From contig REAR01000063.1 of the NCBI GenBank assembly GCA_004295245.1, positions 1 through 55,468 on the forward strand: DNA of 55,468 nucleotides, in the 5' to 3' direction. The position numbers and the translations under genes are program-made. The notes under the pieces were generated by a model. That model was not told where the DNA came from and ran no database searches. It saw only the letters and a program-made list of their open reading frames with translations. Position 1 is the stretch's first letter; each line of letters starts with the position of its first letter. This stretch comes from Sphingobacteriales bacterium (GTDB taxonomy: Bacteria; Bacteroidota; Bacteroidia; Chitinophagales; Chitinophagaceae). Positions 10,686-21,865 of the stretch are shown here, one piece after another.

Positions 10686-10835
10686 GGGTTGTAAAAATAA
10701 AGACTAATCTATAACCAACCCTTTTTTGAACAGACTTATACTCCTTTGGCATTGAAAACTGTATTTTGGCAGGCAACCCCCGCTGGTAAAGCTGCGTATT
10801 TAGCTGTACCTTAGAATATCCATAAAGGCACAATT

Positions 10836-11423
10836 TTGACTGGCCAAAATGAAAAAATATTAAATATGCTTGATGGTTGCTGTAAAAACAACCGTCAAAG
10901 TCAGCAGGAATTATACAACTGGCTGTTTGGTTTTGCTATGAATATATGTTACCGCTATACCAGCCTGCCAGAAGAGGCCGAGGAATTAACGCATGAGTCG
11001 TTTATTAAACTATATAAAAACATAAACCAGTTTGAAACCACCCGGCAGCAGCCATTAGAGCCCCTGTTAAAAGCCTGGTTTAAAAAAATTACTATTAATA
11101 CCTGTATTGATTTTTTACGTCGTCGCCACTCTATGCTAAACGGCTATGCGTTACCTGCAGAAAGCCAGGAAATTGCTGGCAGTGATATTAGCGGATTTGA
11201 TAAACTTTCTTACAACGATATTATTGAGGTGGTAAGAAAATTATCGCCGGTGTACAGAACTGTATTTAATCTTTTTGTAATAGAAGGCTTTACCCACGAT
11301 GAAATAGCCCGTAAGCTGGGCATAAGCGTGGGCGCCTCAAAATCCAACCTATCAAAAGCAAGGCACAATTTGCAAAAGTTAATTGTGCAGCAAAATGAAG
11401 TAAAAGAATATGCAACCAACTGA
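10836..11423 (+). CDS. ECF-type RNA polymerase sigma factor
   Basis: 195 residues from a TTG start at 10836 preceded by AAAGG at 10824-10828; an ATG at 10866 would give a protein ten residues shorter. Region 2 is seen in EEAEELTHESFIKLYKNINQFE and in FKKITINTCIDFLRRRH (promoter melting and -10 binding). Region 4 is the helix-turn-helix in SPVYRTVFNLFVIEGFTHDEIARKLGISVGASKSNLSKAR. The stop overlaps the next gene by 14 bases; that gene has the layout expected of its membrane-bound partner. Target promoters are unknown. Confidence 0.9.
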   Translation: MTGQNEKILNMLDGCCKNNRQSQQELYNWLFGFAMNICYRYTSLPEEAEELTHESFIKLYKNINQFETTRQQPLEPLLKAWFKKITINTCIDFLRRRHSMLNGYALPAESQEIAGSDISGFDKLSYNDIIEVVRKLSPVYRTVFNLFVIEGFTHDEIARKLGISVGASKSNLSKARHNLQKLIVQQNEVKEYATN

Positions 11424-12849
11424 AAACAATAGAATGGATCAGCTTGGCCGTGAAGCGGCTGAAAATTACCAGGCGCCTGTAGCACCTGCCTGGGATAATT
11501 TTTTACCGCAGCTGGAAGCAGCGTTGCCCGTGAAAGAAAAAAAGCGCCGCCGCTTTTTCATTTTCTGGCTATTGCTAGGCCTTACTGTGGGTGGTACAGG
11601 TATCTATTTTTTATTACAACCAGCCACTACCAATAAAGCCATTGCAAAACCTGCTGCTGCGCCTATTGAAACTATTATGCCAGTAAGCCAATCAAACGGG
11701 TTAACAGAAAAAATAACCACTGAAAAAGCAAAACAAGCAGCTAATAAAAAAGCAACTATCTATATAAAAGAAAATACAATTACAGATACACGAACCACCA
11801 AAAAAAATACGCCAAAAAATAATTACAACAATAACACTATAAAGACTATCCAAAAATTTATTGATGCCACGGCAGCAACAAATACGCAACAACAAAACAA
11901 AAAAAATGAAGCCAAGCCTTATACATCTGAACCCAAAAAAGCTATAGCAAACAACGCAGTTACTTTAGATAAAAAAACCACGGAAAAAAATATTACCATA
12001 ATTAATAACCAAAAGACTACAGAAACTGTAGCAACTAAAACTGCCAGTTCATTACTACCTGAAGCTGATAAAAACAATAACGCCAGTAATGATCCATTGG
12101 TTAATAATGCAATTTCAGATTCGGCCACTACCACAATGCCCACAGTAGCAGTAGCCGTACCTGCACCAGTTACCACGCCTGCCGCAGATAGCAATAAAGC
12201 AATAACCAGCAATAAAAAGCCGGCACCAAAAGCTAAAGAAAAAAACATATTTAGTTTGGCAGTTGCTACCGGGTTTGATTGGAGTACTGTAAAATATGAT
12301 TATGCAGAGCCGCTCGGTATTAACATTGGCATAATAGGCGGATATCATTTAAATAAACGCTGGTCTTTACACAGCGGTTTAATATATACTCATAAAAGAT
12401 ATGAAGCCAAAGGGCAGAATTTTTCGCCAAAAGACAAAAACCCCTGGTACAATACTATTAAAATGATGCATGTGGATGGCTATTGTAATATGTGGGAATG
12501 GCCTGTTTATGCCCGTTATGTATTTAACCCATTAAAAAAACAGACTTACTTTATAAGTACCGGCATTGCATCATACAAGATTAATAAAGAAAACTATAAT
12601 TACACATACACTTACAATACCGGTACTACAGTTTACAACAAACAGTCTGTTAGAAATGATAAAGATATTTACCTGGCCAGTATACTGCATCTATCTGCAG
12701 GCGCCAGCTTTACTGCCGGTAAAAAAATAAATATACTTGCAGAGCCATATGCCAAATTACCCCTGCGTAAAATGGGTTATGGTAGTTTGATGCTTTCCAG
12801 CTTTGGTATTAACTTTTCTTTGCAGCTAAAGCAACCACAAAAAAAATAG
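11410..12849 (+). CDS. Sigma-partner membrane protein with predicted C-terminal outer-membrane beta-barrel
   Basis: 479 residues in four parts. Residues 1-48: short cytoplasmic segment ending in KEKKRRR (positive-inside). Residues 49-69: one strong membrane helix (FFIFWLLLGLTVGGTGIYFLL). Residues ~70-278: a low-complexity linker rich in Thr, Asn, Lys, Ala and Gln. Residues ~279-475: alternating strands (ATGFDWSTVKYDY, WSLHSGLIYTHKRYE, YFISTGIASYK) ending in SSFGINFSLQL, like an OmpA/porin-family barrel. Coupled to the sigma gene by a 14-base overlap, so the N-terminus may hold the sigma factor as an anti-sigma. If both membrane parts are real, one chain would link inner and outer membranes. 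Function is inferred from layout only. Confidence 0.7.
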   Translation: MQPTENNRMDQLGREAAENYQAPVAPAWDNFLPQLEAALPVKEKKRRRFFIFWLLLGLTVGGTGIYFLLQPATTNKAIAKPAAAPIETIMPVSQSNGLTEKITTEKAKQAANKKATIYIKENTITDTRTTKKNTPKNNYNNNTIKTIQKFIDATAATNTQQQNKKNEAKPYTSEPKKAIANNAVTLDKKTTEKNITIINNQKTTETVATKTASSLLPEADKNNNASNDPLVNNAISDSATTTMPTVAVAVPAPVTTPAADSNKAITSNKKPAPKAKEKNIFSLAVATGFDWSTVKYDYAEPLGINIGIIGGYHLNKRWSLHSGLIYTHKRYEAKGQNFSPKDKNPWYNTIKMMHVDGYCNMWEWPVYARYVFNPLKKQTYFISTGIASYKINKENYNYTYTYNTGTTVYNKQSVRNDKDIYLASILHLSAGASFTAGKKINILAEPYAKLPLRKMGYGSLMLSSFGINFSLQLKQPQKK

Positions 12850-12890
12850 TTGCGTAATCCTCATATCCCATTCACCAAAACAAGTTTTAC

Positions 12891-13715
12891 ATGAAGAAGC
12901 ACCAACTATTAACTGCATTAAGCCTCATTATACTTATTGCAATAGGCATTTATGGTTGTAGTAAAGGTGGCGGCACCACTACCCCAGCCAACCCTTGTGC
13001 CAGCAAAACCATTACCGTAACAGCTACTACCACTAATAGTAATGCCGGGGCAAGCACCGGTTCCATCAGTGCAACAGCAACGGGCAGCAGCAATTTTACA
13101 TTTAGTATTAATGGCGGTGCTTTTCAGGCAAGTGGTAATTTCAGCAATCTTGCAAAAGGCACTTATACTGTTACTGCAAAAGACAATGAAGGTTGTACCG
13201 GCTCTGCACAGTTTACCGTAAATGAAAATGATGCATGTCTTGGAAAAACCATTACAATCAGCGGTGCTGTTACAGAAAACTCAGACCCCTGTACCAACAC
13301 CGGCAAATTAACCATTACAGCAGGTGGCAGTACTAATTTTACATACAATATTAATGGCGGCACTTTTCAAGCGTCTGCTTCTTTTAGCAATGTAGCTGCA
13401 GGCACTGTAACTATTGGTTGTAAAGATGGTGATGGTTGCACTAAAACAACCACCGTTACTGTGGGCACTTTAGCTGCTGGTTCATTGTTTGCCGATGTTA
13501 AGGCAATCATTCAGACCAAGTGTGCAATTAGTGGATGCCACAACGGATCTCAGGCACCCAACTTTACACAAGATTGTAATATTTCTGCAAACGCGGCCCG
13601 TATTAAAGTAAGAGCCGTTGACCAGGGAGATATGCCGCCAACAGGCCCCTTAACACAAGCTGAAAAAAATAAAATTACAGCATGGGTTACGGCCGGCGGT
13701 CGTGTAAGTAATTAA
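12891..13715 (+). CDS. Lipoprotein with two SprB-like repeats and a cytochrome-c-like C-terminal domain
   Basis: 274 residues. Signal sequence with lipobox Cys23 (GIYGCSKGGG). Two internal repeats of about 75 residues follow (near 38-110 and 117-190), each with the pattern T-G-x-I/L...F-x-x-INGG-x-FQAS-x-x-F-x-NLA/VAAGT, like SprB-type repeats of gliding and adhesion proteins. The C-terminal domain has IIQTKCAISGCHNG with C211, C216 and H217, then M248-P-P and an AEKNKITAWVTAGG helix, as in cytochrome c domains of Planctomycete/Bacteroidetes type. The haem motif is CX4CH, not CX2CH. It starts 41 bases after the barrel gene and may share its operon. Confidence 0.75.
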   Translation: MKKHQLLTALSLIILIAIGIYGCSKGGGTTTPANPCASKTITVTATTTNSNAGASTGSISATATGSSNFTFSINGGAFQASGNFSNLAKGTYTVTAKDNEGCTGSAQFTVNENDACLGKTITISGAVTENSDPCTNTGKLTITAGGSTNFTYNINGGTFQASASFSNVAAGTVTIGCKDGDGCTKTTTVTVGTLAAGSLFADVKAIIQTKCAISGCHNGSQAPNFTQDCNISANAARIKVRAVDQGDMPPTGPLTQAEKNKITAWVTAGGRVSN

Positions 13716-19337: not shown

Positions 19338-19883
19338 ATGAGTAAACTACAATTGAAGGCAGCAGATTTGGGTGCTTTTATGCAAAAGCATCAGGGCAGA
19401 ATATACAACGCGGCTTTAAACCTTTTGCAAAACCAGCTAGAGGCAGAAGAAGTTACGCAGGATGTATTTCTGGAGGCTTATAACAAACAGCAAAGCTTTA
19501 AAGGCGATGCTAGCATCAGCACCTGGTTGTACCGTATTGCAATAAATAAATGCATAGATATTTTAAGAAAAAAACAAAGGCGGCTAAAATGGACAAATCC
19601 GTTAAAATGGATGGCCGCCGAAGCGTTACTACCAGTAGAACCAACAGATTTTGTGCACCCTGGCATTGTAACAGAAAATAAAGAAAAAGCAGCCATTTTG
19701 TACAACGCATTATTGCATTTACCGGTTAACCAACGCACTGCTTATTTACTGCACGATACTGAGCATCTTTCATACAAAGAAATAAGCGAAGTATTAAAAA
19801 CCAGCATTCCAGCAGTAGAATCCCTGTTGTTTAGGGCCAGGCAAAACCTTAGAAAAAGTATTGAAAAATATTATAAAGATTAA
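19338..19883 (+). CDS. ECF-type RNA polymerase sigma factor
   Basis: 181 residues. Region 2: LEAEEVTQDVFLEAYNKQQSFKGDASISTWLYRIAINKCIDILRKK. Region 4: LPVNQRTAYLLHDTEHLSYKEISEVLKTSIPAVESLLFRARQNL, the -35-binding helix-turn-helix. It begins a compact cluster (short membrane protein, Spy-like protein, di-haem peroxidase) with gaps of 4, 1 and 24 bases. The arrangement resembles cnr-type systems in which a membrane anti-sigma and a periplasmic sensor control an ECF factor. A GGAGG at 19316-19320 lies about 18 bases before the start. Confidence 0.92.
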   Translation: MSKLQLKAADLGAFMQKHQGRIYNAALNLLQNQLEAEEVTQDVFLEAYNKQQSFKGDASISTWLYRIAINKCIDILRKKQRRLKWTNPLKWMAAEALLPVEPTDFVHPGIVTENKEKAAILYNALLHLPVNQRTAYLLHDTEHLSYKEISEVLKTSIPAVESLLFRARQNLRKSIEKYYKD

Positions 19884-20698: not shown

Positions 20699-21865
20699 AT
20701 GAAATATAAAAACGCATTACTAATAACAAGTTGCTTTTGCAGTATGCTGGTAACCGGTACGGCAATTATTAGTTGTAATAAAAGCAACAGTAATTCTTCA
20801 CCGTCAGATCCGTTGGCGGCACTCAACCTGCCCGCCACTCCATTTGCATATGCCAGCCAGCCGCTGCCCCTTTATTTTAATAGCCCGCCCATACAAGCGC
20901 AAATAAATACACCGGTAGATAACGCAGTAACCGATTGGGGTGCCACGCTGGGCCGTGTATTGTTTTACGACAAAAAACTATCCATCAATAACAGTATATC
21001 TTGCGCTAGCTGTCATGCACAGGCCAATGGATTTTCTGATACTGCAGTGCTTAGTAAAGGCTTTGCCGGCGGTTTAACAGGCAGGCATTCCATGTCGCTT
21101 ATTAACGCAAAATATTATCCCAATGGCCGCTTCTTTTGGGATGAAAGAGCCACTACATTAGAACAACAGGTATTAACCCCCGTGCAAGATGCTGTTGAAA
21201 TGGGGATGCGGTTAGACACCTTAAATAATCGCTTACAAAAAACAACACACTACCCTTATCTCTTTAATAAAGCTTTTGGCTCAGAAACCATCACTTCAGA
21301 CCGTATTGCAAAAGCCATGGCGCAATTCATTCGTTCTATGATTTCTTACCAATCTAAGTTTGATGCTGGCCGTGCCGCCGTTACACCGGGGCAAGACCCC
21401 GTACTTACTCCCTATAGCAATTTTACCGCACAAGAAAACGAAGGAAAGCAATTGTTTTTTAGTGCCACCACAACCTGCAATACCTGCCATGGTACTGAAA
21501 CCTTTACTGCACCAGCAGATAGAAATAATGGATTGGAAAACCCATCAGTTGACCGGGGTAAAGGGGGCGTAACCAATATACCCGTGCAAATAGGCAATTT
21601 TAAAGTGCCCTCTTTAAAAAACATTGCATTAACGGCGCCCTATATGCACGATGGACGGTTTAAAACTTTAGAAGAAGTAGTGGAACATTATAACAGCGGT
21701 ATTAAATCCAACCCCAACCTGGCACCGCAATTAAAAAATAACGATGGTACCCCTAAACGAATGAACTTAACAACACAACAAAAAAATTCGCTGGTGGCAT
21801 TTTTAAAAACGCTTACAGATACTGTAATTACAACCGATACTAAATTCAGTAACCCTTTTCGTTAA
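20699..21865 (+). CDS. Di-haem cytochrome c peroxidase family lipoprotein
   Basis: 388 residues. Lipobox Cys26 (TGTAIISC). Two standard CxxCH haem sites: C102-A-S-C-H106 and C260-N-T-C-H264. Other family signatures: LGRVLFYDKKLSINNSISC, GRHSMSLINAKYY, FFWDERATTLEQQ, FKVPSLKNIALTAPYMHDGR (methionine ligand region) and LEEVVEHYNSG. The family reduces H2O2 in the periplasm using electrons from small c-type cytochromes, or acts on other substrates (MauG-like). It ends the ECF sigma cluster, suggesting control by envelope or redox stress. Confidence 0.9.
   Translation: MKYKNALLITSCFCSMLVTGTAIISCNKSNSNSSPSDPLAALNLPATPFAYASQPLPLYFNSPPIQAQINTPVDNAVTDWGATLGRVLFYDKKLSINNSISCASCHAQANGFSDTAVLSKGFAGGLTGRHSMSLINAKYYPNGRFFWDERATTLEQQVLTPVQDAVEMGMRLDTLNNRLQKTTHYPYLFNKAFGSETITSDRIAKAMAQFIRSMISYQSKFDAGRAAVTPGQDPVLTPYSNFTAQENEGKQLFFSATTTCNTCHGTETFTAPADRNNGLENPSVDRGKGGVTNIPVQIGNFKVPSLKNIALTAPYMHDGRFKTLEEVVEHYNSGIKSNPNLAPQLKNNDGTPKRMNLTTQQKNSLVAFLKTLTDTVITTDTKFSNPFR

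Follow-up and report, generated by a model that had tools for sequence, protein, structure and literature searches.

The window, a stretch of 55,468 nucleotides from a Sphingobacteriales bacterium (Chitinophagaceae), encodes next to an ECF sigma factor gene a 479-aa protein that by its layout is a Dma/Reo-type anti-sigma factor, an assignment made by comparison with published descriptions of this class. Very probably, the N-terminal ~47 residues of this protein hold the sigma factor, a single helix anchors the chain, a tether of ~212 residues crosses the periplasm and a C-terminal barrel resides in the outer membrane, and disturbance frees the sigma factor. A one-chain connection from the outer membrane to the sigma factor had been put forward in a preliminary description of the sequence, and it is the best reading of the conserved N-terminus and the predicted barrel described below. 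The idea as such is not novel, as it has already been published for Dma/Reo proteins of the same layout.

The positions of all features are compiled in Table 1. The anti-sigma reading frame starts before the sigma gene has ended, with an overlap of 14 nt, and both sigma regions were clearly matched by Pfam (region 2, 1.5e-11; region 4, 7.4e-15). Upstream, the gene pair is flanked by a 316-aa minus-strand ORF and downstream by a gene for a lipoprotein, neither of which is a TonB receptor. Hydropathy, the AlphaFold2 model and the gene overlap confirmed that the helix and the predicted barrel belong to one chain encoded beside an ECF sigma gene.

Table 1 Features of the sigma/anti-sigma locus and their coordinates in the window.
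Feature	Position	Strand	Basis
Predicted ECF promoter of the sigma/anti-sigma operon	10772..10798	+	GGCAACC-N16-CGTA
ECF sigma factor	10836..11423	+	195 aa, TTG start; Pfam Sigma70_r2 and Sigma70_r4_2; clade alignment; tree
Putative anti-sigma factor	11410..12849	+	479 aa, ATG start; layout, conservation, structure model, overlap with sigma stop
Predicted cytoplasmic anti-sigma domain, residues 1-47	11410..11550	+	conservation, structure model, N-terminal profile
Single inner-membrane helix (predicted), residues 48-68, positive-inside	11551..11613	+	hydropathy, structure model
Disordered Thr/Ala/Lys/Asn-rich periplasmic tether (predicted), residues 69-280	11614..12249	+	pLDDT, composition
8-stranded outer-membrane barrel (predicted), residues 281-473	12250..12828	+	model pLDDT >90, structural alignment
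Second promoter-motif copy	12830..12856	+	AGCAACC-N16-CGTA; partly within the last anti-sigma codons
Lipoprotein with repeats and C-terminal c-type haem motif	12891..13715	+	CAISGCH; possible distal Met in GDMPP

This arrangement is not peculiar to the window. A protein search returned 27 full-length copies in other genomes and, together with that of the window, all 28 are encoded immediately after a related sigma gene and overlap with it, which is above chance. Vice versa, starting from the sigma factor, a reduced sigma alignment was used to survey 80 loci across Bacteroidota. At 79 of these, the adjoining protein possesses an N-terminal single helix; at the sole exception, L089, the N-terminal motif is readable before the frame breaks. 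The partner proteins were full length in 74 cases (the other five being cut, masked or short) and comprised 44 of the same barrel type, 18 with a type-B sorting domain and 12 with other C-termini, of which no more than six have Pfam support for a barrel, one of them being of the PorP/SprF type. Two more sigma/anti-sigma pairs of the same layout (L131:865-2932 and L132:867-2910) occur in the genome of the window itself, with sigma factors that branch elsewhere in the sigma tree.

In the structure model, residues 1-47 form two short helices (8-18 and 28-37). This part of the protein is conserved across the family and includes an invariant tryptophan (W28), which suggests that it is the sigma-binding domain. 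No cysteine or histidine is present in residues 1-47, and an anti-sigma factor of the class I zinc (ZAS) type was rejected, as the domain is without a His/Cys zinc motif. A positive-inside single helix had been claimed at residues 49-69 and was found: the best 19-residue hydrophobic window spans 51-69 (mean Kyte-Doolittle value 1.92) and is preceded by the basic stretch KEKKRRR, and the AlphaFold2 model places the helix at 48-68. Hydropathy analysis gave no second hydrophobic peak along the 479-aa chain. The helix starts between residues 42 and 61 in 40 of 43 barrel-type proteins. When a profile was built from the N-termini of barrel-type proteins only, all 30 relatives with other C-termini outranked all 468 decoys, and 25 of the 30 were matched at an E value of 1e-3 or better. 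At four loci (L090, L101, L106 and L091), the N-terminal domain apparently occurs in two to three tandem copies before the helix.

The helix is followed by a tether of about 211-212 residues, which agrees with the earlier claim of a Thr/Asn/Lys linker of ~200 residues; it consists of 17% Thr, 14% Lys and 13% Asn and additionally of 15% Ala, and residues 69-280 are devoid of Phe, Trp and Cys. As its pLDDT values mostly remained below 50, the tether is predicted to be disordered. Across the 43 barrel-type proteins, tether length ranges from 124 to 389 aa with a median of 195.

Structure prediction of the full chain yielded eight strands between residues 281 and 473 at a pLDDT of more than 90. 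Structural alignment matched this part of the model to OmpA, OprF, NspA and OmpW at Z scores of 14-17 (OmpA 1qjp: VIA Z 14.9, rmsd 2.7 over 135 residues; OprF 4rlc: VIA Z 15.6, rmsd 2.2 over 133 of 135 residues). As in OmpA-type barrels, only short turns link strands 2-3, 4-5 and 6-7, and, because the number of strands is even, both ends of the barrel would face the periplasm. Pfam gave matches to OMP_b-brl_2 (4.8e-05) and OMP_b-brl (2.6e-04), both under the curated cut-offs. The hydrophobic alternation within the strands exceeded that in 2000 of 2000 column shuffles over the 43 proteins, and the last strand, SSFGINFSL, would be compatible with the general BAM beta-signal pattern. The C-terminal domain is thus predicted to be an eight-stranded, OmpA-like outer-membrane barrel, and a soluble periplasmic sandwich, the fold that the preliminary description had named as speaking against a bridge, was rejected.

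We also asked which genes the sigma factor may control. A position matrix of the regions before the sigma genes gave the consensus AGGCAACC-N15-17-CGTAT. The GCAAC element is present in 76 of 88 upstream regions of barrel-type loci and in 16 of 18 of type-B-type loci, and the dyad GCAAC..CGTA at promoter spacing occurs in 32 of the 88 barrel-type regions compared to 0.1 in shuffles. Within the window, the copy before the sigma gene is the sole exact match to the motif, where 0.08 are expected. The conservation of the motif before the sigma genes leads us to predict autoregulation.

The second copy of the motif coincides in part with the last codons of the anti-sigma gene. It recurs at the identical place and spacing in three close relatives that also possess the lipoprotein (L002, L005 and L053), where it is encoded by Gln-Pro codons of the anti-sigma tail; spacer and stop codon differ from those of the window. 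An element at this position is rare across all 96 loci (5 vs 1.0 expected), so the second site is confined to close relatives of the window. This copy gives the best clue to an output, and the lipoprotein gene behind it is the likely output gene of the sigma factor. At 7 of the 27 other loci that have a full-length relative, the gene immediately downstream encodes a homologue of the lipoprotein. The window protein combines SprB-like repeats with an unusual Cx4CH haem-type motif, and its family bears CxxCH or Cx4CH together with a distal Met-Pro motif. These motifs suggest a c-type haem domain, which may bind haem. In more distant Chitinophagaceae, sigma factor, anti-sigma factor, a tRNA_anti-like protein, a small cytochrome-like lipoprotein, YceI and DUF5777 are encoded in one gene run. 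Elsewhere in the window, a second ECF-type sigma gene (19338-19883) has a gene for a MauG-type di-haem peroxidase nearby (20699-21865).

A whole-genome promoter scan that allowed one mismatch gave a count below that of the reversed control. As there is no genome-wide enrichment, a large regulon is not supported, and none of the other strong matches that were examined in the genome had a convincing gene downstream. One exact match (L134:1501-1527, minus strand) lies shortly behind a gene for a PQQ-dehydrogenase-like protein with a cytochrome c motif; on the strand of this match, the ORF that comes next encodes only 82 aa.

The computed results, namely the arrangement of the genes, the layout of the domains, the predicted fold of the barrel and the conserved promoter copies, can be combined into the following mechanism. 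The N-terminal ~47 residues would bind the ECF sigma factor encoded with them and keep it at the inner membrane for as long as the barrel is properly placed in the outer membrane. Disturbance of the outer membrane or of barrel insertion, or a surface ligand on the barrel, would result in the chain being cleaved or changed and the sigma factor being freed. The latter would then drive its own operon through GGCAACC-N16-CGTA as well as, through the second motif copy, the gene of the c-type haem lipoprotein. That a properly placed barrel keeps the sigma factor bound is modelled on the published relatives, and the motif copies support the promoter step; binding of the sigma factor and of haem, insertion of the chain into both membranes, the nature of the signal and the release of the sigma factor we infer.

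The closest published counterparts are the Dma1/Dma2 proteins with their sigma factors Das1/Das2. In the description of Dma2, an anti-sigma domain at the N-terminus is followed by a helix, a long disordered tether and, at the C-terminus, a barrel, and the gene adjoins an ECF21 sigma gene; in Bacteroides thetaiotaomicron, loss of dma2 results in a phenotype that depends on das2, and the layout was found in Bacteroidota only (PMC13088901). The pair of the window shares the anti-sigma domain, helix, disordered tether, barrel and adjoining ECF sigma gene. It differs in its neighbour, which is the haem-type lipoprotein, and no NigD was found in the genome of the window. The Reo/EcfO systems of Bacteroides fragilis and Phocaeicola vulgatus are alike in their cytoplasm-to-surface placement and in autoinduction. 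Reo has been assigned to all compartments from the cytoplasm to the surface, the Phocaeicola pair is induced by an envelope-stressing toxin (the sigma gene being up 33-fold) and its regulon takes in NigD surface lipoproteins (PMC9308784, PMC13114119). A regulon rich in surface lipoproteins is a further point of likeness, but the predicted output of the window is a c-type haem lipoprotein and not NigD. Applied to a NigD-bearing genome family, the sigma profile found 7 genomes in which a sigma gene lies within ~0.6 kb of nigD and precedes a gene for a protein with a like N-terminus, a helix and a long C-terminal part. At L201, L206, L207, L208 and L209, the sigma domain is fused into frames of 547-584 aa, similar to published Dma3. 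In contrast to the loci related to the window, a search upstream of the two-gene sigma genes in these NigD-bearing relatives did not find the motif GGCAACC..CGTA.

The state of the outer membrane is likewise relayed to an ECF sigma factor by FecI/FecR/FecA, which are however three separate proteins, whereas the window encodes a single chain. Signalling of this type through a separate outer-membrane receptor encoded at another place in the genome would not be unexpected, as such systems are common in Bacteroidota and TonB-dependent receptors are encoded elsewhere in the window. We nevertheless regard it as hardly probable at all: Pfam gave no FecR domain in the anti-sigma protein, no TonB receptor gene is located within or beside the operon, and the chain itself includes a predicted barrel. 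A FecR-type anti-sigma factor was rejected accordingly. It is also very improbable that the helix is a signal peptide or anchor of an ordinary outer-membrane barrel and that the adjoining sigma factor is regulated otherwise, even though annotation of the C-terminal domain by itself would give an OmpA-like barrel. The preliminary description had recognized that a cleaved signal peptide would speak against a bridge. A signal peptide is contradicted by the 47 conserved residues with the invariant tryptophan that precede the helix; the near-constant position of the helix start, the retention of the N-terminal domain where the C-terminal domain is replaced and the overlap with the sigma gene in every full-length copy argue against this explanation as well.

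The nature of the signal is a separate matter. Dma2 has been proposed to sense an unidentified glycan, and in our model the long strands flanking two loops (350-371 and 378-402) would leave space for a binding surface. The barrel of the window protein may therefore be a receptor for a ligand such as a glycan, with the surface ligand and not membrane damage as the signal. We consider this unlikely, since the recurrent neighbours in relatives are cytochrome-like lipoproteins, tRNA_anti-like proteins, YceI and DUF5777, with no carbohydrate genes among them, and since the Phocaeicola pair responds to an envelope-active toxin (PMC9308784, PMC13114119).

Unlike the N-terminal domain, the far end of the anti-sigma protein is exchangeable. 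A Flavobacteriales-rich sigma clade (23 sequences, SH-aLRT 98) contains 18 members in which the C-terminus of the anti-sigma factor is a PKD-type region followed by a CHU_C/type-B sorting domain for type IX secretion (L077, L079, L092, L095, L097, L100, L103, L104, L107, L111, L112, L114, L115, L116, L119, L122, L129 and L130). Their genes are located directly after the sigma gene, and N-terminal domain and inner-membrane helix are as in the barrel type. A further anti-sigma factor of this clade (L106:5283-7127) ends in a PorP/SprF-type barrel; TIGR03519 matches this locus at 1.6e-23, below the curated cut-off, and PF11751 matches one member of the set with other C-termini at 1.5e-21. Where this anti-sigma gene stops, a gene for a lipoprotein-like protein with a type-B domain starts (L106:7127-7762), and PorP-like barrels have been reported to anchor type-B cargo. 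One anti-sigma family thus ends in a barrel, in a secretion cargo signal or in a cargo-holding barrel. SprA was present in all 40 genomes tested, including those of the barrel type and all 18 of the type-B type, so the presence of type IX secretion does not discriminate between the variants. In the part of the literature that we covered, no report of such secretion-linked anti-sigma factors was found, and they may perhaps be new; they are more surprising than the protein of the window itself.

Studies of the Dma/Reo class have so far dealt only with a small number of gut Bacteroides and Phocaeicola; the window extends it to environmental Chitinophagaceae. Here, a readable promoter and a specific predicted output gene render autoregulation and regulon testable. 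Tentatively, and with some doubt on our side, the Dma/Reo family may be seen as a general client-mimic sensor, in which the shared N-terminus, helix and tether carry at their end a substrate of an outer-membrane machine, or a partner of it, and the sigma factor reads how the machine handles this client. The client would mostly be a barrel, as a BAM substrate, in the Flavobacteriales-rich clade a type-B domain, and once a PorP/SprF barrel with a type-B lipoprotein next door. The exchange of the barrel for a type IX sorting domain suggests that the sensors may monitor the very machinery by which proteins are exported across or inserted into the outer membrane.
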